Shown: positions 32,111 through 64,000 of the stretch, piece after piece
Layout of the letters: each line of letters begins with the position of its first letter
Numbering within the stretch: the first letter of the stretch is position 1
From: Spirochaetales bacterium
GTDB lineage: Bacteria; Spirochaetota; Spirochaetia; UBA9216
Length of the DNA stretch: 64,000 bases
Assembly (NCBI GenBank): GCA_016839055.1
Contig: JAEKNX010000003.1
Span: forward strand, 186,001-250,000
Reading direction: 5' to 3'
The notes under the pieces: model-generated
Seen by the model: only the letters and a program-made list of their open reading frames with translations
Databases searched by the model: none
What the model was told of the DNA's origin: nothing
Made by a program: the position numbers and the translations under genes

Positions 32111-33241
32111 ATGAAGAACTGGAACAGCCCCGCAGGGCAACTCAAACTCGAAAGATACCCATTTAAAGGCGAACTGAGCCATCAGGCCTGGGACAGCGCA
32201 GACGAATGGATAGTAAAGCACTTTCCGGAGCAAAATAAACCCGTGTTAATAACCGGCGAAGCCTTCGGCGTGCTTGGAACCGTCTGGGGAAAATCCTCCA
32301 TTACCGCCTGCGGAGATTCCCATCTCGCATTTAGCGCCCTCATGAAAAACAGGTCCCTGAATCCGGAAAACACAGGCGGAGAGCTCAAGCTGCTGCCGTC
32401 AACGGATCATTCAGACTCCGACAAGGTTTTCGGTCGTATTTTCATTCGAATACCGAAGGACCTCTCTCTTATGGAGTACTATCTAAAACACTCTCTTCGC
32501 TTCGCCGATGCAGATTCCGAAATATGGCTTGGAGCAATGGATAAACGCTGGAGCAGCGGTGTGAAAAAAATAACCGAAAACCTGCTTGCGACAGAGGAAG
32601 TGTTTCCCTTTGAACGACACTCAAGATGGATCAGGTTCAGCAGACTCAATGCTCAAGACAGATTCGAGGCTGCTATAGCTCCCTCTTGGAACCTCGAAAA
32701 ATTCCCGCTCAAGTTTCATGCCGCGCCCGCTGTATTCTCGAGCACAGGACTTGATGCCGGAACTTCGGCTTTTTTATGGGCATTCCCGGAGAACCAGATC
32801 TCTGCGGCAGACTCCATCGCAGACCTCGGATGCGGAAGTGGCATTCTGGGCATATCCGCAGCCTATCTCAACCCGAACGCGGCGCTCTATTTTACAGATG
32901 AATCTTATCTGGCAGTTAGGAATGCCGAAGACAATTACAAACAGAATAATCTTACAGGACAGGCGGATTTTATGGCGGCACACGGCCTCGAAGGGGTTAA
33001 AGACGACAGTCTCGATCTAGTTCTATGCAACCCGCCGTTTCATTTCCAGAATATTCAGAGCAGGGAACCTGCCAGGTTTCTCTTCGAAGAAGCTCGGAGA
33101 ACCCTGCGTCCCGGAGGCTGCATCCAGGTAGTAGGCAACAATCATCTAGGCTATCACAAACTGCTGAAAGAGCTTTTCAGCAATACCGATGAAGTCTACC
33201 AAAACAGTAAATTCACCGTGCTCAGGGCAGTTAAAGCATAG
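32111..33241 (+). CDS. RlmG/RsmC-like rRNA guanine-N2 methyltransferase
   Basis: This 376-residue protein has the two-domain layout of RlmG/RsmC: a degenerate N-terminal Rossmann-like half and a catalytic C-terminal half. The SAM motif ADLGCGSGILGISAAYLNP lies near residue 237. The catalytic NPPF, in LVLCNPPFHFQ, is typical of N2-guanine or N6-adenine methylation. RlmG modifies 23S rRNA and RsmC 16S rRNA; which applies here is not decidable by eye. A longer frame to 31667 overlaps the divergent oxidoreductase and is not supported. No ribosome site is visible before the ATG. Confidence 0.85.
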   Translation: MKNWNSPAGQLKLERYPFKGELSHQAWDSADEWIVKHFPEQNKPVLITGEAFGVLGTVWGKSSITACGDSHLAFSALMKNRSLNPENTGGELKLLPSTDHSDSDKVFGRIFIRIPKDLSLMEYYLKHSLRFADADSEIWLGAMDKRWSSGVKKITENLLATEEVFPFERHSRWIRFSRLNAQDRFEAAIAPSWNLEKFPLKFHAAPAVFSSTGLDAGTSAFLWAFPENQISAADSIADLGCGSGILGISAAYLNPNAALYFTDESYLAVRNAEDNYKQNNLTGQADFMAAHGLEGVKDDSLDLVLCNPPFHFQNIQSREPARFLFEEARRTLRPGGCIQVVGNNHLGYHKLLKELFSNTDEVYQNSKFTVLRAVKA

Positions 33242-33313: not shown

Positions 33314-34807
33314 TTGACAGTTAAAGCAAAAAGCAGGGCGGTATTTCTCGACCGCGACGGAACAATAATTCAGGACAGGGGTTATCTCAGCAGCGTATCA
33401 GAGGTTGAGATTTTCTCCGACACAATCTCCTCATTAAAACTGCTGCAGGAAGAGGAGTATGAGCTCTTTATAGTAACCAATCAGAGCGGTGTAGCCAAAG
33501 GTCTTATTTCGAACGATGAGGTTGAGAAAATCAACGGCTACATTGATGAGCAGCTGCGAGAAGCGGGAATTACAATCAGGCAGTGGTATGTCTGCCCGCA
33601 TGAGAGCGGCTGCAACTGCAAAAAGCCGGCCCCATTTTTTCTGAATAAGGCCGCAGCCGACTTCGACATCGATCTCAGCCGATCATGGGTTATCGGAGAT
33701 CATCCCCATGATATTCTGCTAGCAAAAAACGTCGGCGCGGCCGGCCTCTACGTACTCACCGGGCACGGCTCAAAGCACCTTTCGAATCTTCCGATTGATG
33801 TCCCCGTCTTCCATAATCTCTCCGACGCCGCCACGCGCATCCTGAACCCTGATACCGCAGACAGTGGTAATTATTGCAGTATCCAAGAGGCGGCGTCTCT
33901 CCTCAAAAGCGGCGGTCTTGCGGCATTTCCTACCGAAACCGTCTACGGTCTCGGCGCGGATGTCTTCAACCCGGAGGCTGTTGCAAGAATTTTCGAACTT
34001 AAAAACCGGCCGCTTTTTAACCCTTTAATTGCCCACATCTGTGACCTTGAAATGCTTGACCGCCTCACAGACGATATTCCCGATACTGCCCGCAGCCTCA
34101 TTAAAGAATTCTGGCCTGGCCCCCTGACCCTTGTTTTCCGGAAGAAAGAAGCCGTTCCGGACATCGTCACAGGAGGAAACCCCACAGTCGCAGTCAGAAT
34201 GCCGGCACACCCGATGGCCCTCGAGCTAATAAAAAGGGCCGGAACCCCGATAGCCGCCCCGAGTGCTAACGCGTTTGGGAAAACAAGCCCCACAACCGCC
34301 GTTCATGTAATCGAACAGCTCGGTCACCTAGGCTATAAGATAATTGACGGCGGAGCCAGCCGGGTTGGAGTGGAATCGACGGTGCTGTCTCTGGTTCATG
34401 ATAAACCAGTCCTTCTTCGGCCCGGCGGTCTTTCAATTGAAGAGATAGAGAGAGTCGTCGGGAAAATCAAGCACCAAGGCGAACCCGAACTTGTTAATCT
34501 TGAGAGTCCCGGACTTCTTGCCAGCCATTATTCACCACATACCCCTTTTATTCTTGAAAACGGAGGACCTGTGGACAATAATGATCCGCAGACTGGACTA
34601 CTGCTTTTCAAAAGGACAGAAATCATAAGCGCGGGTCCGGTGGAAGTCTTAAGTCCTGACGGAAGTACCGAGGAAGCCGCGGTGAATTTATACGCGGCAA
34701 TGCGGAGACTCGATAAGATGGGTCTTAAAAAAATAATAGCCTACAAACTTCCCGAACACGGACTCGGAAAGGCTGTGAATGATCGAATCTCCAAAGCTTC
34801 CACGTAG
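33314..34807 (+). CDS. Fusion: GmhB-type HAD phosphatase plus Sua5 threonylcarbamoyl-AMP synthase
   Basis: The first 180 residues form a HAD phosphatase with FLDRDGTI (nucleophile Asp), IVTNQSGVAKGL and the Zn loop CPHESGCNCKKP. That loop is typical of heptose-1,7-bisphosphate phosphatase (GmhB) and histidinol-phosphatase. Residues from about 187 to the end are a full Sua5: the YrdC domain has AFPTETVYGLGADV, LKNRPLFNPLIAHI and PSANAFGKTSPT, followed by the C-terminal Sua5 domain with SHYSPHTPF. Sua5 makes threonylcarbamoyl-AMP for the t6A37 modification of tRNA. I know of no functional link between the halves. The start is TTG with AAGGG upstream. The stop codon lies in the first unit of a tandem repeat. 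Confidence 0.9.
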   Translation: MTVKAKSRAVFLDRDGTIIQDRGYLSSVSEVEIFSDTISSLKLLQEEEYELFIVTNQSGVAKGLISNDEVEKINGYIDEQLREAGITIRQWYVCPHESGCNCKKPAPFFLNKAAADFDIDLSRSWVIGDHPHDILLAKNVGAAGLYVLTGHGSKHLSNLPIDVPVFHNLSDAATRILNPDTADSGNYCSIQEAASLLKSGGLAAFPTETVYGLGADVFNPEAVARIFELKNRPLFNPLIAHICDLEMLDRLTDDIPDTARSLIKEFWPGPLTLVFRKKEAVPDIVTGGNPTVAVRMPAHPMALELIKRAGTPIAAPSANAFGKTSPTTAVHVIEQLGHLGYKIIDGGASRVGVESTVLSLVHDKPVLLRPGGLSIEEIERVVGKIKHQGEPELVNLESPGLLASHYSPHTPFILENGGPVDNNDPQTGLLLFKRTEIISAGPVEVLSPDGSTEEAAVNLYAAMRRLDKMGLKKIIAYKLPEHGLGKAVNDRISKAST

Positions 34808-34886
34808 TAGAAGATTCAGCTTCCACGTAGTGGAAGATTCAGCTTCCACGTAGTGGAAGATTCAGCATCCACGTAGTGGAAGATTA
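34795..34886. repeat. Four tandem 23-bp palindromic repeats
   Basis: Four head-to-tail units start at 34795, 34818, 34841 and 34864. Each contains the hairpin CTTCCAC-GTA-GTGGAAG; unit 1 has one arm mismatch and unit 4 another. Units 2 and 3 are identical. The first unit supplies the last four codons and the stop of the HAD/Sua5 gene. From 34887 to 35000 I see nothing beyond a weak GC-rich stem. Confidence 0.9.
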
Positions 34887-35209: not shown

Positions 35210-36067
35210 TCATTGTCGAGCAAAAACTTTCCGGACAGCCGAATTTATCAATCTAAGAAGAATATACACAGCCCCGGCAAGAATAATTGTTACAGAACCG
35301 GTAGGCAGGTCAAAAATATAACTGAGACAGAGTCCCACGGATGACAGTAATATGGAAAAGATGACCGAGAGTCCTATCATCACCGACAGCCGCTTCGAAA
35401 ACATGGAAGCCATTGCCGGCGGCAGCGTAAGAAAGGCAATTACCATTACCGTCCCGACCAGAGACACCATGAGAACTACCGTAATACTGATGAGGAGCAT
35501 AATAACAACCTGAAAAATCGTAGTGTTGATACCCCTTGTCTCGGCAAACTCGGCGTCAAAGGAGATTGCCTGAAACTGGTTATAGAACAGGATACCGAAG
35601 GTCAGTATTATGACTGAAAATGCCGAGATTGTGATGAGCTGGCTCTTTCCTATCAGCAGAATATTTCCGAAGAGATAACTCATAGGATCTACATACCCGG
35701 GCGTCCTGGCCATGAACAACAGCCCCAGAGACATTCCAACAGCCCATACTGCGCCGATTACCGTATCCATGCGCTCGCTTCCATAGATCATTACAAGGCT
35801 CAGGATTCCTGATGCAAGAAGAGCAAAAATCAGGGCTCCGCCCATAGGCTGAATAAAACTGACTCCTACTACCGCGTTTAGGTAGAGGGCAAGACCTATC
35901 CCGCCGAGAACGGAGTGACTGATAGCTCCGGCTATTGAGCTCATTTTCTTGACGACGACAAATGATCCGATAAAACCGAAGGGAATGCTGCCGATAATAC
36001 CCGCGAACAACGCCATTCTTATAAAGGGAACCTCAGGATTAATCACAGCCTGGATAAAATCATGCAT
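35210..36067 (-). CDS. Zinc/manganese ABC transporter permease (ZnuB/TroC-like)
   Basis: This 285-residue integral membrane protein, with about eight hydrophobic helices, belongs to the ABC-3 permease family. It has the family segment AISHSVLGGIGLALYL, which contacts the ATPase, and ETRGINTTIFQVV further on. The start at the ATG at 36067 follows the ATPase stop by one base and has GGGGGG upstream; a longer frame would overlap the ATPase gene by 50 bases. It forms the inner-membrane channel with the ZnuC-like ATPase. Confidence 0.92.
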   Translation of the reverse strand: MHDFIQAVINPEVPFIRMALFAGIIGSIPFGFIGSFVVVKKMSSIAGAISHSVLGGIGLALYLNAVVGVSFIQPMGGALIFALLASGILSLVMIYGSERMDTVIGAVWAVGMSLGLLFMARTPGYVDPMSYLFGNILLIGKSQLITISAFSVIILTFGILFYNQFQAISFDAEFAETRGINTTIFQVVIMLLISITVVLMVSLVGTVMVIAFLTLPPAMASMFSKRLSVMIGLSVIFSILLSSVGLCLSYIFDLPTGSVTIILAGAVYILLRLINSAVRKVFARQ

Positions 36068-36068
36068 T

Positions 36069-36818
36069 TCAGACACCCCCCGCCCTGTGTTCCGGAAGAT
36101 CATGGTCATGCCGGACAACCTTCATACGGCTCCCGTACGCGGCCGTTATTACCTGGTCATCGAGTTCATCGACGGGATGCTCTCTGACAGTCCGGTTGAC
36201 ACAGAGAACCCTGTTGGTAAATTCATTAACGAAACCCAGATCATGGGTAACTAGAATTATTGTGTGATCGAGGCTCAACTTCATCAGCAGGCCGTTGAGA
36301 TGCTTCTCGGCATCGGCGTCAATACTTGCCGTCGGCTCATCAAGCAGCAGAATTTCAGGATCAGCTGCGAGGGCACGGGCAATAAGAATCCGCTGCCGCT
36401 GCCCACCGGAGAGTTCAAAAAACGACCGGTCTTCAATATTTGCGAGCCCTACAGCCGAGAGACTCTTAGCAGCGGCTATTCTGTCACCGCGTGAATAAAA
36501 ACCGAAATTCCTGATTCGACCGGAAAGCACTACCTCGAAGACGGTAATAGGATAAGAGCTGTCGAGATTTGAATACTGCGGAACATAGCCGAATACTCCG
36601 GATTTCACGCTGTTAATGGTAATCCGTCCCTTTTGAGGCTTAAGTCTGCCCATGAGAAGTTTCAGCAGAGTAGTCTTGCCTCCTCCGTTTGGGCCTATAA
36701 CCGTAATAACATCATTACGCATGATGGAAAAACCCGCATCCTCTATAACAGGCTCGTTATTATACGCAAAACTGAGCCCTTCCACCTCTATCAGGGCCTT
36801 AGACGCATCCTGTTTCAT
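36069..36818 (-). CDS. Zinc/manganese ABC transporter ATPase (ZnuC/TroB-like)
   Basis: The 249-residue protein is a standard ABC cassette with GPNGGGKTTLLKLLMG (Walker A), ELSGGQRQRILIARAL (signature), LLLDEPTASID (Walker B) and ILVTHDL (switch His). The GGG within the Walker A and the short length match the ABC-3 metal group. It overlaps the binding-protein gene by four bases and abuts the permease gene, so all three are translated from one message. Confidence 0.94.
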   Translation of the reverse strand: MKQDASKALIEVEGLSFAYNNEPVIEDAGFSIMRNDVITVIGPNGGGKTTLLKLLMGRLKPQKGRITINSVKSGVFGYVPQYSNLDSSYPITVFEVVLSGRIRNFGFYSRGDRIAAAKSLSAVGLANIEDRSFFELSGGQRQRILIARALAADPEILLLDEPTASIDADAEKHLNGLLMKLSLDHTIILVTHDLGFVNEFTNRVLCVNRTVREHPVDELDDQVITAAYGSRMKVVRHDHDLPEHRAGGV

Positions 36819-37732
36819 TTATATGCCTTCCTTATTTCAGCGGCAATTTCGCGCATACTGTTTATATAATCCGGATTAAGCGGGTTTAAGACTACTACAC
36901 TTCCGTCAACTGCGTCGGCAAGCGCCTGGACGCTTCGCTTTGAAAATTCCGGCTGGGCAAAGATTATCTTTACACCTTCTTTGTTCGCGTACTCAATTAT
37001 CTCTTCAAGTTCAGACGGTGACGGCTCACGCCCTTCAAGCTCTACTGCAACCTGCCTGAGTCCGTATTCATCGGCAAAATATCCGAATGACGGATGAAAA
37101 ACAAAGAGTACCGATCCCCGAAACGGCTCGATAGAGGCCGAGATCTCCCGGTGAACATCATCGAGTTCCGAGATAAGCTCGCGGTAGCCTGCATTAAAAA
37201 CATCTTCTGATGCCGGAGACAGCTCCACAAGTGTTTTAAGTATTATCGCTGCCTGCTTTTTCACGAGGACAGGCGACAGCCATATATGCGGATCAACAGA
37301 TCTTGCCTCATGCCCCCGGCCATCACCCTCATCATCATGAACATGGGCTTTAAGAGTCCGTTTCTCTATCCCGGCCGATGTATCCTCAATCCGGAGAGAC
37401 TTGAGCGATTCAGAAATTCTTGGAATAAATGCCTTCTCAAAAGGAACTCCAATAATAAAAAACACATCTGCACGGCTCAATGAGACTACCTGAGTAGGTG
37501 TCGGCTCATAAGTTGTGGGGCTTCTTCCGGGAAGAACCATGACATCAACTAAAACTTTTCCGCCACCGATCTTCTCTACAAAATACCTCTGCGGCAGGAT
37601 GCTTACAAAAACCCGGACTCTATCATCAATAGCCGCGGCCTTATCTTCTCTCTTTCCACCTGCAAAACACGGGACTGCCGCGAGGGACAGCATAATAATC
37701 AGACTTATAAGTGTTCCGTTTTTTTTTATCAT
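36815..37732 (-). CDS. Zinc/manganese-binding protein (ZnuA/TroA-like)
   Basis: A 305-residue exported cluster A-I solute-binding protein. The signal peptide runs to about residue 25 (AAVPCFAGGK). The cysteine there could be lipidated under the loose spirochaetal lipobox, but Pro before it is unusual. A short His/Asp-rich loop, HVHDDEGDGRGHEARSVDPH, sits where ZnuA proteins hold their metal-capturing loop and includes the DPHIW ligand. FVFHPSFGYFADEYGL gives the next ligand. Zinc is favoured over manganese by the His loop. AGGAG lies five bases before the ATG. Confidence 0.92.
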   Translation of the reverse strand: MIKKNGTLISLIIMLSLAAVPCFAGGKREDKAAAIDDRVRVFVSILPQRYFVEKIGGGKVLVDVMVLPGRSPTTYEPTPTQVVSLSRADVFFIIGVPFEKAFIPRISESLKSLRIEDTSAGIEKRTLKAHVHDDEGDGRGHEARSVDPHIWLSPVLVKKQAAIILKTLVELSPASEDVFNAGYRELISELDDVHREISASIEPFRGSVLFVFHPSFGYFADEYGLRQVAVELEGREPSPSELEEIIEYANKEGVKIIFAQPEFSKRSVQALADAVDGSVVVLNPLNPDYINSMREIAAEIRKAYK

Positions 37733-56139: not shown

Positions 56140-59100
56140 TTATTTTACAATCATTACCTTTCGAAACTCATCGATATTAGGTCCGACAACCCTGATGAAG
56201 TATATGCCTCTTGCAACATTGTTGCCGGCCCTGTTCTTTCCGTCCCAGGTGTAGGTGTAGGATCCAGCCCCCTGTGCCCCGCGATGAAGAACATCCACCA
56301 AATCGCCTGACAGATTAAATACATTAATCACAACCATTCCAGAGGTCGCCAGATCATAGGTCAGTATAGTCTTCTCGCCGTTTTCGGGATTTATTACATT
56401 GTTAAGTATGGTAACCCCGGCCGCCTGCCTGGTGATGTCTTTAATTGAAAAACTCCAGGGAATAATCGTCCTGGGATCGTCTTCATCAAGAAGCCTGGCG
56501 CAGAAGAGATCTCCAAGCTGCAGCAGAAACTGAACCTCACTGCCCGAGACTATTTCATCGTCCGCCGAAGGTATCTGAAAATCCCGAACCCCGCCCTCGG
56601 CCCTGTAGGGCAGCAGACTGCGAGATTCTTTATTTGCCGACGGAACGAGGGCGTTATTGAAGGTCGGCAGCCAGAAACCGTCACCTAATACCGAATCAGG
56701 AGGATCAACATCGTAGTACATTCTCGTACTTAGCGCTTGATAGCTTCCGGCAGAGATCGACGCCTCGAGGGTTATATTGCTATCGATAAGATATCCGGTT
56801 CCGTCAAAACTCCTGAGCGTATTATCAGTCGTACCATACAGGCTGCTGTTATGAATGCTGTCCGCGGCCCACACGGGATCCATGACACCCAGACCTATAT
56901 CAGTCACTCTGTGAATAGCACTCGTCTGCATTGCATTAGTTATCTTGTCAAAGACCGATGATACAACAGGTATTATCTTGCCCGAAAATGCGGTATCCGC
57001 CGTCAGAGAATCAGAGAGGGTAAACCAGGCGTCGAGAATACCGCCGTTATAGTAACTTATAGCCTCTATCCCGGTTATCGTTATTCCGGCTGTGGAGAAG
57101 GAAAAATCCGAAGCGTCCACCACCGTTCGCGGAGAACTGTCATTACCGAAAACCGGTTCGGTAAAGCGGACATAGACCCTGTTGTCCCCGACAGATGCCA
57201 GTGACAGCTCTATAGCCGGTGGAATACGCTCAACGCCCGCCAGAGGGAGGGAGGTAGACGGAATCAGATTTCCGGCAAGATCGGTTATCAGGCCAACCGA
57301 GGAATCGTAACTTATCTGAAGAGCCGTAATAGCATTCCACCCATGACCGAAATCGTTCATATTCAGGGTAAAGTACGGATCGTTGGGCGCATTAACGGTG
57401 TTGAACAGGGTATTGTCAACATCGGTACTTAGCCCGGTATTATGAGTATTCACGAGAATATTCACGTTGACATCTTCCACCTTGAAGGCTGAATAAGGGT
57501 TTGAGCCGTGACTGTTATCGGTCAGCGATAAGTCCCTGACACCATGGAGAGGATCAGCATCAGAATGATCTGACAACGGAGCCCATGGGCCGTCATCAGC
57601 ACTATCATCATGGATAAAAAACTCAAGTCTGTTTATAAGTCCTGTTGCGGTGGTTGCTCTTGATACAATTTCATAGTATGTCGGAGGACCTGCTTCATAT
57701 GTGGAAAAGGATGGAGGATCCACATCCCAGCCTAAATAGTCGGCCGGGGGCATATTAACTGCAGGATCGCCGATAACAGCTATATTATTACTAATCACCG
57801 GATTATATACATCATAGCTGTCACTCGACGGCTCAACCGCATTGCCGGCACCATCCTTGATAAAGGCGTTGGCGGCAACCGAGACACTCGCTCCAACTGC
57901 CGTCAAGTCTACCTCACCGAGGGAGGACAGGTCATCAACCCCCGCCTCTCCGATGTAACCGGGAAAAACTGCCGCATTATTCAGCCTGTATCCCGCAATA
58001 TAAACGGTGAGGCCGTGAGTACCCGAGGGATTCTCGCCGTTTGTGTTGTCGCGGTAGAAAGTTGCACCGGGCAGGCCGTCACGCGAGCCATTCGGAAGCC
58101 TTCCGGGATAGGTGAAATAGCCGGTGAGTCCTACAGTTGTTCCGCTGTCGGTTATGCCACCTCCATGCGCGCCGGGGGCCGCAAAGGTCGCCTCAGCACG
58201 CACATTTGCAGCCGTAGCGTCTGCAATGATAAAACCGGCAGCTGTTCCTATGTCTACCGGTTCGGAATACCTGAGGTGAAAATAGTTATGAGCATCGTAG
58301 ATGTACTCAGCGCCTACCCGCCTTTCGGCACGGCCGACAACCACATTCACGAGAGCCGGACGGCACTGGTCTGTGGCTGCGGCAAAAATAGCCTCGCCGT
58401 TCTCACCGTAGTTTTTGACCATATTATGACCGCCGGCATCGAAAAACACGCCTTTAAGCATATCGATGTCGGGAACTATTGCCATATGGGTCCCCTGCCG
58501 GTCGGTACTGAGGGCGTTACCAGGTAATGCTCCTGTTGCGTCGGTGTTCCAGGTCTGACCGGCGGTAGAGACCTGCAGGAAAAATGTAGTCAGATCATCC
58601 TGAGTATTAGTTGGTACGAAGGTATGCGGTGAGGTGCTTTGATCTCCGTCTGAATCGAAAAAGGTTCCCGTAAAGGGCTTAGTATCACCGTCGAACTGTA
58701 TCTGTGCCACCACAGCAGCAATTTCACCATTCGTATTCTCTATCGGTTCACTGAAGGTGATACGCAGCATGTTGTCGTATACGGTCTCGACGCTCGTTAT
58801 CTGCGGCCTGTCGAAGTCCCAGCCGACAACCCCGCCGGGAACATATGCCTGATTGCCTCCGCTGTCGGTTACCTTATTGTTATCATCACCCGCAGCCACA
58901 CTTTCGGTGGCCGAGACATTTCCTCCTGTCACTGTCGAACAGTTGCTTACAGCCATATTAAACGCAACAGCATAGGGCGAACCCCAGGGACCGATTCCGA
59001 CAGGATTCGCGCCGGTATTGTCCTGTACATTCAGTGTCCAGCCGGCACCGCCGTTCATGTTGCTGCCGTTAACATAGAAGTCTCCGCCGACGGTCAGGGT

Positions 59101-62100
59101 TGATCCGTTTAACGGTGAGAACACGGCATTCGGGGCTGTTCCAAATACTCCGGTCAATGGTGTATAAATACCTCCGGCCGGATAATAAACAAGAGCCCCG
59201 GCTTCAGGGTAGGAAAACTCGTTAGCAGGCGCCGCTGCGCGGTCTGTATCATCGGCATCATAAGCCCCGCCGAAAACAACTATATCATCAGTCGTTGTAA
59301 GAGTTCTGCCATTTACGTTGAGAGTACCGCGGTAGAAGATGAGGCGGCCGACTGTGAAGTCACAGAGCATAGTCAGGGTCCGGCCGTTATGGTCCAGGTA
59401 GAGCTGATTAAATGTGATTGCGGCGGAAGCGTCAAACTCGCTGGCCGCGCTGAACGAGGTAACAACACCGTCCGTTCCGCCGGTATAGGCCTGGGTTCCG
59501 CCTGTGCGGTAATGAGAACCGTTCAAAGTAATCCGGCCGTTGTCTCCTCCGTCAGCCGAAGTAACGACGACCGCGCCGTTCGCGCCGTCCTGAGCAGCAT
59601 CGCCTATTCCCGTGAGGGTAATGTCATTTCCGGTAATAGTGATGTTATTAAAATCATTGGCGCCGCCGCCGATAACACCGGGTACGGTGATATCTCCCGT
59701 GCCGGCTGTTATTGTGAGGTTTCGGCCGCCCCCGTCATCGATGACTGAATCACCGGCGCCATTACCGAAGGCGATATCTCCCGGACCCGCGCCTGTTGTT
59801 AACAGAACATCTGCCCCTACCTCAATAGGACTCTGAAAGGTAATAGGTCCTCCAGCAGAAGAGACGTCTTCATCAAAATGAATGGTATTTACCCCGGCGT
59901 TTACTGTAATTGTACCATTGGTTGAGACAATACCGCTCTCTCCGGCTACTATTGTAATATTCCCGCCGGCTGTCAGATTTGTTGAATTTGGTCCAGCTGC
60001 TGTCTGTGCAATCTTTATCACTGAGACAGTATTAGTTTCAATTATTTGAACACTGCCGGTGCCGGTATTGTCAATATCGATCGATCCGACAGTCGTCTCG
60101 ATGGCGTTAAGTGAGCCGACACCGTTAACGGAGTCTATAGTCAGCAGATTACACTGAATGTTGTTAGCGCCACCGTTTCCGTCTATGATTTCACCCGCTG
60201 TCGCCTGCAGGCTTGTATTGTTTCCTGATGTAAGAAGCCCGAGGGTTATGTCGCCTGCAACTGCAGTTCCGGTGATGTCATTATCTGCTGTGACTGCCGT
60301 CAGCACCATACCGCCTGTTGTTGTATCAAGGACTGCATTGTAGGCTCCGGTTGTACCTGAATCATTGGCCTGAACATCGGTTGCGGTTAGCGTTCCGGCC
60401 GCATCGAGGTCTATTGAGCCGTCAAGAGTATAAACATGGGCTGCCAAAAGCGTTCCGTTTGCGTTTAGTGTTATATCTCCGGCCGTAGTCGTATCAACGG
60501 CTGTTGCCGTCATTGCTCCGCCGCTTACAACTGTTATATTACCATTCACCGCATCAACATCGCTCAGCGTTACCGCATTAGTTTCGGTTATCACCATCGC
60601 TCCGGCAGCGCTTGTACTCGCATCGATACTGGATACTGTTGTATCCAAGGTCATAGCCCCGCCGGCATCCGCTGTGAGAACATCGCAGATTATCTTTCCG
60701 ACAGCGTCGGTTATCGCCACTCCGGAAACAAGAGAAACATCATTAACTGCCCCGGCATTAATTATCCCGGCTATTATCCCCCCTCCAACGCTTGTTATAG
60801 TTATATCGTTTAAATCATTATCGGTTAAAGAGCTATCTACATCAGTAGCGGTAACTGCTCCGGCTGCTGTTGTCACTGTTATCGCGCCATTGGTTGTGTC
60901 AATATCTGTAAGGATAATCGCATCGCTTTCTGTTATTATCATTGCACCCGCAGCGCTTGTGCTCGCATTCACACTTGCAACTGTTGTATTAAGCGTCATT
61001 GCTCCCGCCGCATCTGCAGTGAGGATATCGGCACTTATCTTTCCGGCTGCATCTGTTATCGCACCTCCGGATGTAAGATTTACATCGTTTAAAGCTCCGG
61101 CATTAATTATCCCGGCGGTTATCCCCCCTCCAACGCTTGTTATAGTTATATCGTTTAAATCATCATCTGTTGCAGAGCTATCTACATCGGTTGCGATAAC
61201 TGCTCCGGCTGCTGTTGTCACGGTTATTGTTCCATTAGCTGTATCTATATCGGTAAGGGTAATACTGTTTGTCTCTGTTATTATCATTGCACCCGGGGCG
61301 CTTGTGCTCGCATTCACACTTGCAACTGTTGTATTAAGCGTCATTGCTCCCGCCGCATCTGCAGTGAGGATATCGGCACTTATCTTTCCGGCTGCATCTG
61401 TTATCGCACCTCCGGATGTAAGATTTACATCGTTTAAAGCTCCGGCATTAATTATCCCGGCGGTTATCCCCCCTCCAACGCTTGTTATAGTTATATCGTT
61501 TAAATCATCATCTGTTGCAGAGCTATCTACATCGGTTGCGATAACTGCTCCGGCTGCTGTTGTCACGGTTATTGTTCCATTAGCTGTATCTATATCGGTA
61601 AGGGTAATACTGTTTGTCTCTGTTATTATCATTGCACCCGCAGCGCTTGTGCTCGCATTCACACTTGCAACTGTTGTATTAAGCGTCATTGCTCCCGCCG
61701 CATCTGCAGTGAGGATATCGGCACTTATCTTTCCGGCTGCATCTGTTATCGCACCTCCGGATGTAAGATTTACATCGTTTAAAGCTCCGGCATTAATTAT
61801 CCCGGCGGTTATCCCCCCTCCAACGCTTGTTATAGTTATATCGTTTAAATCATCATCTGTTGCAGAGCTATCTACATCGGTTGCGATAACTGCTCCGGCT
61901 GCTGTTGTCACGGTTATTGTTCCATTAGCTGTATCTATATCGGTAAGGGTAATACTGTTTGTCTCTGTTATTATCATTGCACCCGGGGCGCTTGTGCTCG
62001 CATTCACACTTGCAACTGTTGTATTAAGCGTCATGGCACCTGATGCATCTGCAGTGAGGATATCGGCACTTATCTTTCCGGCAGCGTCGGTTATCGCCAC

Positions 62101-64000
62101 TCCGGAAACAAGAGTAACATCATTAACTGCCCCGGCATTAATTATCCCGGCGGTTATCCCCCCGCCAACGCTTGTTATAGTTATATCGTTGCTGTCATCA
62201 TCTGTTGCAGAGGAATCCACATTCGTCGCTATGACGGCTCCGGCTGCTGTTGTCACTGTTATTGCCCCGTTTGATGTATCTATATCTGTAAGGTTAATAC
62301 CGTTTGTCTCTGTTACTGTTAGATCCGCGGCGTTTGTAAGGTGCGCTGTAAGGGTTGCAACGGAGGTTGTAAGTGTAGTATTCCCGCCGGCTGCTCCGGA
62401 ATTAAAAAACAGATCGCCGGAAGCAAAACCGATATTTCTTGGAGTACCGCCGGAATCAACAACATCAGCTACACCGGTCATTCTAAGATCGCCCCCCGTG
62501 GTAATAGTATTGGGAAGCGTCAATGTTCCCCCTGATTTAAGGCAGAGACTGTCATTGCCTAAAAGGGCTACTGCTCCTGCAGCTCCCATATTGAGACTCC
62601 CGGTTGCCTCAATTATTGCCTCCCCCTGATTACCTCCCGCGATATCCAGGGCTCCCGCTCCAAGTGCCAGCGCGCCGTTCTGGTAGAGATATATCTCTCC
62701 AACAGCTGAGGTGCTTACATTTTTTACTGTCCCCGATATGTTCACCTCAACAGCATCACCGGTTTCGGCAGCGAAACCGGTGATATCACCGATATTTACC
62801 TGAGCACTCAGGTCAAGATCAACGGCGGTGATATTCAGCCCAGGTCCGATAGCGGTAATACTTCCCGCATCGGCGCTTAAATTTGCCTCATTGTCGGCTG
62901 TAACTGAACCGAGAACGATATTTCCAGGGTTCACAGTAAGTGTAACATCATGGGTCTCATCGCCTCCGGCGTCACCAGAGGTAACTGTTGTCACAGTCAT
63001 AGTATTGCCGCTTAGAACCTCAATTGCGCCGTCGGTGGTTGTTACGCTGGTCAGAGTTACCGCTCCGGTTTCATTCAGGGCAATATCGCCGTCAAGGGTG
63101 CTGTTGGCAATAATTGTTTCAGAAGTTGTGCCAATCCTGTTCGCCCCGCCGATGACACCAATATTATCCCGGGCAGTAAGGCTGAGAGCCTGCGTGGTTA
63201 TCGTGCTGTCGCCATCTGCGTCGATTATTGCTCCAAGGGTCCCCTGGAGAATTACATCACTTGCCGTTCCGCCGGTAGTAATTGTATCAATTTCGATATC
63301 TCCCGCGGAGGCGGTTACGGTAATATCATTTGCTTCGAGATCGGTGCTTGAAACTATGGAAGTTATTACAGTTGCACCTCCGGTTGTTATATCGACATCT
63401 CCATTGGCGGCGATTACATTCTGGATATTCACAGCGTCAGTCTCGGCGATATCGATTAACCCCGCGGCGGTAGTCTGAATATTGAGATTATCAACTGTTG
63501 TATCCACAGTTATCGCCCCGGCAGCCGTAAGACTCAATGTCGTCGCTAAAACATCGGCAAGGCCGTCTGCGTCGGTAACCGCACCTCCGCTGACAAGTGT
63601 TACATTTCCGGTACCGGCATCTACAAAACCAATGGGCATTGCACCGGTAGTTGTAACATAGACATCACCGTTCCCGCCGCTGCTGTCGGCATCAAAGCGG
63701 GTGACATCCACCGTTATTTCAATATCTCCTGCCGCCGCGGCGCCTATGCCGGACGGGCCGGTTATTGAAATAATGTTGCCGTAAATATTCGCTGTCTCGG
63801 CAGCGGAACTATCAGTAACTGCTCCGATATTATCGGATAGCCCCCCGACCGAACCGGCGTAGTCCGCCTCTATTGTTACATTGCCGACAGCCCCCGCAGA
63901 ATCGCCGTCAGCGCTCACAAAGGCTAGTGAAATATCCTCCGGAGCCCGGAGGGTCACATTGCCATCATCCGATAGAACAGAGTATGTATCTGCCACAATA
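56140..64000 (-). CDS. Giant repeat-rich surface protein, C-terminal 2619 residues (5' end outside window)
   Basis: The frame is open to the window edge, so the true start is not seen. From the visible N-terminal side: about 1600 residues of Thr/Asp/Ala/Gly-rich parallel-beta-helix-like repeats, as in filamentous haemagglutinin and large adhesins (NGTITVTTAAGAV, NDITITSVGGGI). Then come several Ig-like segments (QITSVETVYDNMLRITFSEP, with two similar copies further on). The C-terminus is a FlgD-like Ig domain: GSYTYTWDGKNRAGNNVARG. The composition is very poor in Cys and Lys. Export is expected but the signal peptide lies upstream. A role in adhesion or matrix structure is inferred from architecture and from the neighbouring polysaccharide genes. 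Confidence 0.85.
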   Translation of the reverse strand, partial: IVADTYSVLSDDGNVTLRAPEDISLAFVSADGDSAGAVGNVTIEADYAGSVGGLSDNIGAVTDSSAAETANIYGNIISITGPSGIGAAAAGDIEITVDVTRFDADSSGGNGDVYVTTTGAMPIGFVDAGTGNVTLVSGGAVTDADGLADVLATTLSLTAAGAITVDTTVDNLNIQTTAAGLIDIAETDAVNIQNVIAANGDVDITTGGATVITSIVSSTDLEANDITVTASAGDIEIDTITTGGTASDVILQGTLGAIIDADGDSTITTQALSLTARDNIGVIGGANRIGTTSETIIANSTLDGDIALNETGAVTLTSVTTTDGAIEVLSGNTMTVTTVTSGDAGGDETHDVTLTVNPGNIVLGSVTADNEANLSADAGSITAIGPGLNITAVDLDLSAQVNIGDITGFAAETGDAVEVNISGTVKNVSTSAVGEIYLYQNGALALGAGALDIAGGNQGEAIIEATGSLNMGAAGAVALLGNDSLCLKSGGTLTLPNTITTGGDLRMTGVADVVDSGGTPRNIGFASGDLFFNSGAAGGNTTLTTSVATLTAHLTNAADLTVTETNGINLTDIDTSNGAITVTTAAGAVIATNVDSSATDDDSNDITITSVGGGITAGIINAGAVNDVTLVSGVAITDAAGKISADILTADASGAMTLNTTVASVNASTSAPGAMIITETNSITLTDIDTANGTITVTTAAGAVIATDVDSSATDDDLNDITITSVGGGITAGIINAGALNDVNLTSGGAITDAAGKISADILTADAAGAMTLNTTVASVNASTSAAGAMIITETNSITLTDIDTANGTITVTTAAGAVIATDVDSSATDDDLNDITITSVGGGITAGIINAGALNDVNLTSGGAITDAAGKISADILTADAAGAMTLNTTVASVNASTSAPGAMIITETNSITLTDIDTANGTITVTTAAGAVIATDVDSSATDDDLNDITITSVGGGITAGIINAGALNDVNLTSGGAITDAAGKISADILTADAAGAMTLNTTVASVNASTSAAGAMIITESDAIILTDIDTTNGAITVTTAAGAVTATDVDSSLTDNDLNDITITSVGGGIIAGIINAGAVNDVSLVSGVAITDAVGKIICDVLTADAGGAMTLDTTVSSIDASTSAAGAMVITETNAVTLSDVDAVNGNITVVSGGAMTATAVDTTTAGDITLNANGTLLAAHVYTLDGSIDLDAAGTLTATDVQANDSGTTGAYNAVLDTTTGGMVLTAVTADNDITGTAVAGDITLGLLTSGNNTSLQATAGEIIDGNGGANNIQCNLLTIDSVNGVGSLNAIETTVGSIDIDNTGTGSVQIIETNTVSVIKIAQTAAGPNSTNLTAGGNITIVAGESGIVSTNGTITVNAGVNTIHFDEDVSSAGGPITFQSPIEVGADVLLTTGAGPGDIAFGNGAGDSVIDDGGGRNLTITAGTGDITVPGVIGGGANDFNNITITGNDITLTGIGDAAQDGANGAVVVTSADGGDNGRITLNGSHYRTGGTQAYTGGTDGVVTSFSAASEFDASAAITFNQLYLDHNGRTLTMLCDFTVGRLIFYRGTLNVNGRTLTTTDDIVVFGGAYDADDTDRAAAPANEFSYPEAGALVYYPAGGIYTPLTGVFGTAPNAVFSPLNGSTLTVGGDFYVNGSNMNGGAGWTLNVQDNTGANPVGIGPWGSPYAVAFNMAVSNCSTVTGGNVSATESVAAGDDNNKVTDSGGNQAYVPGGVVGWDFDRPQITSVETVYDNMLRITFSEPIENTNGEIAAVVAQIQFDGDTKPFTGTFFDSDGDQSTSPHTFVPTNTQDDLTTFFLQVSTAGQTWNTDATGALPGNALSTDRQGTHMAIVPDIDMLKGVFFDAGGHNMVKNYGENGEAIFAAATDQCRPALVNVVVGRAERRVGAEYIYDAHNYFHLRYSEPVDIGTAAGFIIADATAANVRAEATFAAPGAHGGGITDSGTTVGLTGYFTYPGRLPNGSRDGLPGATFYRDNTNGENPSGTHGLTVYIAGYRLNNAAVFPGYIGEAGVDDLSSLGEVDLTAVGASVSVAANAFIKDGAGNAVEPSSDSYDVYNPVISNNIAVIGDPAVNMPPADYLGWDVDPPSFSTYEAGPPTYYEIVSRATTATGLINRLEFFIHDDSADDGPWAPLSDHSDADPLHGVRDLSLTDNSHGSNPYSAFKVEDVNVNILVNTHNTGLSTDVDNTLFNTVNAPNDPYFTLNMNDFGHGWNAITALQISYDSSVGLITDLAGNLIPSTSLPLAGVERIPPAIELSLASVGDNRVYVRFTEPVFGNDSSPRTVVDASDFSFSTAGITITGIEAISYYNGGILDAWFTLSDSLTADTAFSGKIIPVVSSVFDKITNAMQTSAIHRVTDIGLGVMDPVWAADSIHNSSLYGTTDNTLRSFDGTGYLIDSNITLEASISAGSYQALSTRMYYDVDPPDSVLGDGFWLPTFNNALVPSANKESRSLLPYRAEGGVRDFQIPSADDEIVSGSEVQFLLQLGDLFCARLLDEDDPRTIIPWSFSIKDITRQAAGVTILNNVINPENGEKTILTYDLATSGMVVINVFNLSGDLVDVLHRGAQGAGSYTYTWDGKNRAGNNVARGIYFIRVVGPNIDEFRKVMIVK
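60610..62335 (-). repeat. Tandem 345-bp (115-residue) repeats inside the giant protein
   Basis: Five units with exact 345-base spacing (anchor sequence at 61081, 61426, 61771, with a diverged copy at about 62116 and another at about 60736). The three central units are nearly identical in DNA, the outer two diverged. Each encodes a unit running from GAMIITETN to VASVNASTS. Units 2 and 4 share a Pro at the second position of the unit where units 3 and 5 have Ala, suggesting that a 690-bp pair was duplicated as a block. Confidence 0.9.

Follow-up and report, generated by a model that had tools for sequence, protein, structure and literature searches.

A gene fusion of a HAD-IIIA phosphatase domain and the tRNA-modification enzyme Sua5 in a spirochaete lineage, with a substituted zinc-loop arginine in the fused copies

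The stretch of Spirochaetales DNA analysed here (64,000 nucleotides, hereafter the window) carries a single gene whose product combines an N-terminal phosphatase domain of the HAD-IIIA type with both domains of Sua5, and the features of this locus are collected in Table 1. The Sua5 half was recognised by the Pfam models PF01300 (aa 196-371, E-value 4e-57, 193 bits as against a cut-off of 25.1) and PF03481, the Sua5 C-terminal domain (aa 374-496, 2e-21, 77.4 bits as against 22.9), and it passed the NCBIfam model TIGR00057 with 193.7 bits (cut-off 123.2). The N-terminal part of the protein was covered by Pfam HAD models and passed the NCBIfam models TIGR01656 (124.3 bits on aa 9-145, cut-off 84.15) and TIGR01662 (110.6 bits, cut-off 44.6). 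Solved structures that are similar by sequence were a Sua5 (6f87, 5.5e-77) and a GmhB (3l8e, 7.9e-20). The signature of Sua5, which we take to consist of KxR and SxN, is present in the translation as K-N-R and S-A-N, and the fusion is the sole PF01300 match in its own genome, which is 96.95% complete.

Table 1. Features of the HAD-Sua5 locus, in window coordinates
Feature	Position	Strand	Basis
Upstream methyltransferase gene (PF05175)	32150..33238	+	part of the genus neighbourhood
HAD-Sua5 fusion gene	33314..34807	+	open frame of 497 codons, TTG start, TAG stop, no internal stop
HAD-IIIA phosphatase domain, ~aa 8-178	33335..33847	+	TIGR01662 aa 8-146, TIGR01656 aa 9-145, NF006506 aa 7-178 (under cut-off)
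Zinc loop and motif III, aa 94-104 (CPHESGCNCKK)	33593..33625	+	alignment with E. coli GmhB and HisB-N
Short linker, ~aa 179-188	33848..33877	+	gap separating the domain matches
TsaC/YrdC domain of Sua5, ~aa 189-382	33878..34459	+	TIGR00057 aa 189-382, PF01300 aa 196-371
SUA5 C-terminal domain, aa 374-496	34433..34801	+	PF03481, 77.4 bits

One open-frame match spanning both halves was found in six of the seven genomes examined of the order and in all five of the genus. The carriers are the genome of the window, four other members of its genus (66-73% identity) and G392, a member of another genus (49%), and the seventh genome of the order, G393 (86% complete), gave only a short YrdC-like match, of which G392 also has one. 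Across 392 sampled genomes of the phylum, most Sua5 proteins are without a HAD half, and among the matches listed (to an E-value of about 3e-49) both halves were spanned in the window, in G374 and in G044, a genome of another family. The G044 gene carries a frameshift, with the reading continuing in another frame near the C-terminus, and the genome itself is incomplete (80%, with 5% contamination). Unlinked parts were found only in more distant relatives; the nearest unfused relatives of the HAD half are 12 proteins of the same phylum, 40-50% identical to it, and all 12 are encoded on contigs other than that of the listed sua5 match. The fusion is confirmed as genuine, and the first-pass annotation, which was made from the sequence alone, is supported in part. 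Its proposal that a HAD phosphatase is joined to Sua5 is upheld by the Pfam and NCBIfam matches over cut-off and by recurrence of the architecture in relatives; its statement that both halves have intact motifs agrees with the HAD and zinc residues seen by alignment and with K-N-R and S-A-N in the Sua5 half; and its placement of the HAD half in the zinc-loop group of HAD-IIIA proteins, that of GmhB and HisB-N, is supported by TIGR01656 and TIGR01662. It had suggested the distribution of the architecture as a check, and this turned out as six of seven genomes of the order plus G044 from another family. The opposing outcome that it had envisaged, namely relatives with the two parts as unlinked genes and an assembly error here, failed on the presence of the fusion in five of five genus genomes.

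By eye, the four other genus members have a methyltransferase gene similar to that of the window before their fusion, separated from it in two of them by a single gene of the opposite strand. In G392 the gene directly upstream is one for a DUF4914 protein (L112, 1415-3307, + strand), so that the fusion persists in two neighbourhoods. A DUF4914 gene also lies directly upstream of the unfused HAD gene in three genomes of family f27 (loci L151, L152 and L153). DUF4914 was considered as a functional partner and was rejected, the family having no match at E<=1e-20 in the window's genome or in G374, and inspection by eye of 12 other DUF4914 loci (frames of at least 110 codons within some 1.5 kb to either side) showing no such HAD; no paper on DUF4914 turned up in the papers searched. 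After the fusion, on the opposite strand of the window (35210-37732), there are ABC transporter genes that include a binding protein of the ZnuA type together with an ATPase, and a similar transporter set was observed by eye after the fusion in G396. A tandem array of four 23-base units, every one of them with a hairpin, begins within the final codons of the fusion (34795-34885), the hairpin in perfect copies of the unit being CTTCCAC GTA GTGGAAG. The 121 bases around these units gave an RNA fold of -41.6 kcal/mol (z -3.7), and the 17-base repeat core, with one mismatch allowed, has four copies in the genome, all of them at this position, and none in G374 or G392. Elsewhere in the window five 345-base tandem repeats, 91% matching, occupy 60587-62315 inside a frame of 2618 aa (56140-63996, - strand) which by eye resembles a large repetitive surface protein.

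Alignment of the HAD half with GmhB and HisB-N of E. coli identified D13 and D15 (motif I), T55-N56 (motif II), K104 (motif III) and D129 (motif IV), with C94, H96, C100 and C102 kept as zinc ligands. The residue ahead of the motif-III lysine is K103 in the fusion of the window, whereas it is an arginine in GmhB (R110) and in HisB-N (R104), a difference that the first-pass annotation had overlooked. Across an alignment of 38 rows, which included E. coli GmhB and HisB, all 31 unfused HADs retain this arginine of the CxC-R-KP loop and all seven fused copies have lost it, with lysine in its place in five of them, isoleucine in G392 and alanine in G044. Comparison of the 7 fused rows with the 12 unfused rows of the subfamily flagged five differing columns, and the arginine column alone is located in the zinc and catalytic loops. 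The arginine before the motif-III lysine presumably helps to set the specificity of GmhB, and its substitution at this one loop position, taken with the missing pathway partners described below, suggests that the fused HADs have a changed substrate or altered specificity. Identity over the ten pairs formed by five genus members was 63-80% for the HAD half and 66-83% for the Sua5 half. For each half dS could be estimated in three of the ten pairs, where it was far above dN, the other pairs being saturated; in G374-G395, the sole pair with dS for both halves, dN was 0.131 at a dS of 1.89 for the HAD half and 0.105 at 1.95 for the Sua5 half. The conservation and low dN of the HAD half match what upkeep of both halves would give. 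In a structure model most residues of the HAD half had a pLDDT below 50, and this part of the model was unusable because the underlying alignment contained two HAD relatives only.

The GmhB or HisB role that the first-pass annotation had considered for the HAD half, with heptose or histidinol phosphate chemistry, was not supported. The HAD half scored under all GmhB cut-offs (NF006506, 132.7 bits of 178; TIGR00213, 98.2 of 149.6; NF050049, 103.3 of 250) and under that of hisB_Nterm (TIGR01261, 74.5 bits of 140). GmhA (TIGR00441) had no match at E<=0.001 in the window's genome (96.95% complete) or in G396 and was over its cut-off of 209.45 in none of the eight genomes searched, with partial matches of 101-113 bits in G374, G395 and G044. 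A HisJ-type PHP protein was over cut-off in six of these eight genomes, which are the six genomes of the window's family (f1) that have the fusion, the window's own included, and IGPD is encoded separately in all eight, in frames of 163-243 codons that are too short for a HisB-type fusion. In the window's genome the IGPD frame, of 202 codons, is on contig C3 and the fusion on contig C8, and the presence of IGPD makes a histidine pathway likely. In each of the six f1 fusion genomes no protein but the fused HAD exceeds the TIGR01656 cut-off. Together with the missed equivalog cut-offs, the lack of a GmhA match, and the presence of HisJ and a separate IGPD, this makes both the GmhB and the HisN role unlikely. 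As a separate observation, G374 encodes a PfkB-type kinase with a HAD domain near a GmhA-like SIS protein (L113, 9585-13277, and L114), and by eye a similar cluster is present in G395.

In another family of the phylum, f12, the Sua5 proteins of 26 genes (25 of the 119 family genomes) have an N-terminal stretch in which the DxDG, zinc-loop and GDxxxD motifs were found in none of the 26. From the preceding stop to the Sua5 motif this region measures 109-327 residues, which is an upper bound, and from the first methionine 105-195 residues in the four genomes measured. A profile built from seven of these stretches out of four genera, hand-chosen and with hand-trimmed ends, matched the whole HAD domain with a score of 68.0 over 157 columns, and with 52.9 when its last 24 columns were removed. 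None of 100 column shuffles exceeded 18.9, and a Sua5 profile used as a control scored 17.0. In local mode the real score was reached in 0 of 60 and 0 of 100 shuffles; global mode was dropped because one of 60 column shuffles scored 130.9, above the real 58.4. The stretch begins FLEKK where the phosphatases have FLDRD. Taken singly, f12 stretches matched HAD models weakly, the highest score being 10.9 bits (E 0.00067 in a set of 60 sequences), and the subfamily model at chance level, and no f12 genome was among the 128 of 392 phylum genomes with a HAD match at 1e-15. In the f12 genus g55 the stretch is shorter in most genes, and nine g55 stretches did not rise above the shuffle level (18.9) against the HAD profile, yet aligned with the longer f12 stretches at a score of 62.2 over 46 columns, so that a HAD origin is reached for g55 by chaining only. 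In the seven profiled genes the stretch is homologous to the HAD domain, of which it seems to be a decayed copy. As the f12 Sua5 proteins keep a motif-less stretch only, Sua5 seems able to work without the phosphatase, and the apparent decay argues against an obligatory link. The action of the phosphatase on a by-product of the Sua5 reaction, which the first-pass annotation had put forward, stays a speculative alternative.

A 62-row Sua5 tree, built from a thinned selection of the earlier rows, eight of the 26 f12 rows and those 29 of 37 further loci that gave a usable frame, placed the six f1 fusions and the eight f12 Sua5s in one clade with support of 99/98.7, and within it the Sua5 half of G392 is next to f12 rows (95/90). 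The f1 fusions group with f12 Sua5s in two other Sua5 trees also, one of them built without 10 of the 52 earlier rows and without 10 of the 26 from f12. A topology that unites the six f1 Sua5s and leaves f12 outside was not rejected (p 0.202). In HAD trees the seven fused copies form one group with modest support (79/70, or 73/77 with three long rows of the 38 removed), and a grouping of the six f1 copies that excludes G044 was not rejected (p 0.38). In the best Sua5 trees the Sua5 half of G044, a row of about 200 residues, stands apart from the other fused copies, and a single Sua5 clade was not rejected, with p 0.084 for the seven fused copies alone and p 0.335 and 0.355 with f12 rows. It is possible that G044 represents a second fusion, or else one origin with transfer or domain exchange. 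The simplest history would have the fusion arise in the common ancestor, followed by upkeep in f1 and decay in f12.

The Sua5 family makes threonylcarbamoyl-AMP (TC-AMP) from threonine, bicarbonate and ATP, and the Sua5 half would do so here for t6A. HAD phosphatases dephosphorylate their substrates via an aspartyl-phosphate, and the HAD half would follow this route, with D13 as the nucleophile, D15 as the acid/base, K104, D129, and the zinc loop beside the site. Its substrate may be a small phosphomonoester, probably neither heptose bisphosphate nor histidinol phosphate. The domain would derive from the stand-alone phosphatase subfamily of the same phylum and would have been joined to Sua5 before the window's family and one f12 line split, after which the zinc-loop arginine would have changed to lysine, isoleucine or alanine, the HAD being kept in f1 and decaying in f12. 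The two sites probably act independently and may have been joined for co-expression; the reason for holding them to be independent is the apparent loss of HAD activity in f12, where Sua5 is retained. As a whole, this reading of one chain with two independent sites, an altered HAD specificity and co-expression as the reason for the join is the one we regard as probable.

The phosphatase could instead serve the t6A step itself by supplying or protecting Sua5, for instance through conversion of O-phosphothreonine to threonine or removal of a phosphorylated inhibitor from the vicinity of the active site. Such a role would fit a domain that is fused to the genome's only PF01300 match, is kept in six of seven genomes of the order and has an arginine loss common to all seven fused copies. 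It would also fit the carbonic anhydrase gene (PF00484, 156 bits; L066, 85-711, - strand) that in G044 immediately follows the HAD-Sua5 gene in the same orientation and would suit a bicarbonate-using Sua5. Against this, the f12 Sua5s bear a motif-less stretch only, a HAD half is missing from most Sua5s in the phylum sample, and a carbonic anhydrase motif beside the fusion was seen in the G044 contig only, among the loci compared, and we consider a t6A role unlikely, if worth keeping in mind. There is likewise a small chance that the HAD domain is now mainly a structural or regulatory part of Sua5, with catalysis secondary, as the motif-less HAD-derived stretches that remain attached to Sua5 in f12 might suggest; f1, however, keeps the HAD and zinc residues with dN far below dS where estimable, and the shorter stretch in g55 looks as if it were being lost. 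A true GmhB of the heptose pathway, to which the matches to GmhB models and structures could point, is quite improbable given scores under the cut-offs, the lack of a GmhA match in the window's genome or G396 and the lost zinc-loop arginine. A histidinol phosphatase would be in keeping with TIGR01656 over cut-off and with a likely histidine pathway indicated by IGPD, but it is made highly improbable by HisJ over cut-off in the window's genome and by the hisB_Nterm score. An artefact of assembly or frame, for which the frameshift in the G044 copy might be cited, has next to no chance and is ruled out for the window by the open frame across the join in six genomes of the order.

The fusion shares with other Sua5 proteins its TsaC-like and SUA5 domains, a TIGR00057 score over cut-off and 6f87 as the best solved relative, and differs from them in its N-terminal HAD phosphatase domain. 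With GmhB, the D-glycero-D-manno-heptose 1,7-bisphosphate 7-phosphatase, the HAD half has in common the HAD-IIIA type, all HAD motifs and the Cys-His-Cys-Cys zinc loop; unlike GmhB it lies under three cut-offs, has a zinc loop shorter than that of the E. coli enzyme, has lost the arginine before the motif-III lysine and occurs in the window's genome without a GmhA match. The N-terminal domain of HisB is likewise of the HAD-IIIA type, has a zinc loop of similar length and is also half of a fusion protein, but its partner there is IGPD and here Sua5, and the fusion described here is under the HisB cut-off and coexists with HisJ. The HAD-IIIA domain is also found in nucleotidyltransferase-like proteins of the same phylum (partner assigned by eye), in which, in contrast to the fusion, the HAD is C-terminal; of 20 stretches with other long HAD-IIIA frames 14 were readable, and none of these 14 had Sua5 motifs. 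By eye, HAD-IIIA forms the C-terminal half of such proteins at L265-L273, L277-L279 and L282, except in L277, where it is in the middle. TsaC-like domains fused to another domain are described for HypF and TobZ (PMC10321239), and these differ in having a Kae1-like partner and carbamoyl phosphate as the donor, whereas the present protein combines a phosphatase with a full Sua5. No paper on a HAD-Sua5 architecture was found in a search of open papers, judged by their titles and the beginnings of their abstracts. The architecture is a new combination of known parts, and the surprise is moderate.

This case warns against labelling such HAD domains as GmhB or HisB. The apparently decayed copies of f12 may serve as a natural control, and they would illustrate how a fused enzyme turns into an inactive stub. 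The t6A modification is near-universal, and to our knowledge few extra domains are known on its first enzyme. That the HAD acts in t6A synthesis, feeding Sua5 or clearing an inhibitor, and that in one lineage carbonic anhydrase is linked to them as a third partner, is a doubtful proposition on present evidence; if true, it would add an unrecognised activity to a near-universal tRNA-modification pathway. The fusion, in which a phosphatase is attached to the sole Sua5 of the genome and a substituted loop residue sets the fused copies apart, offers a defined protein for asking if t6A synthesis involves a partner phosphatase.
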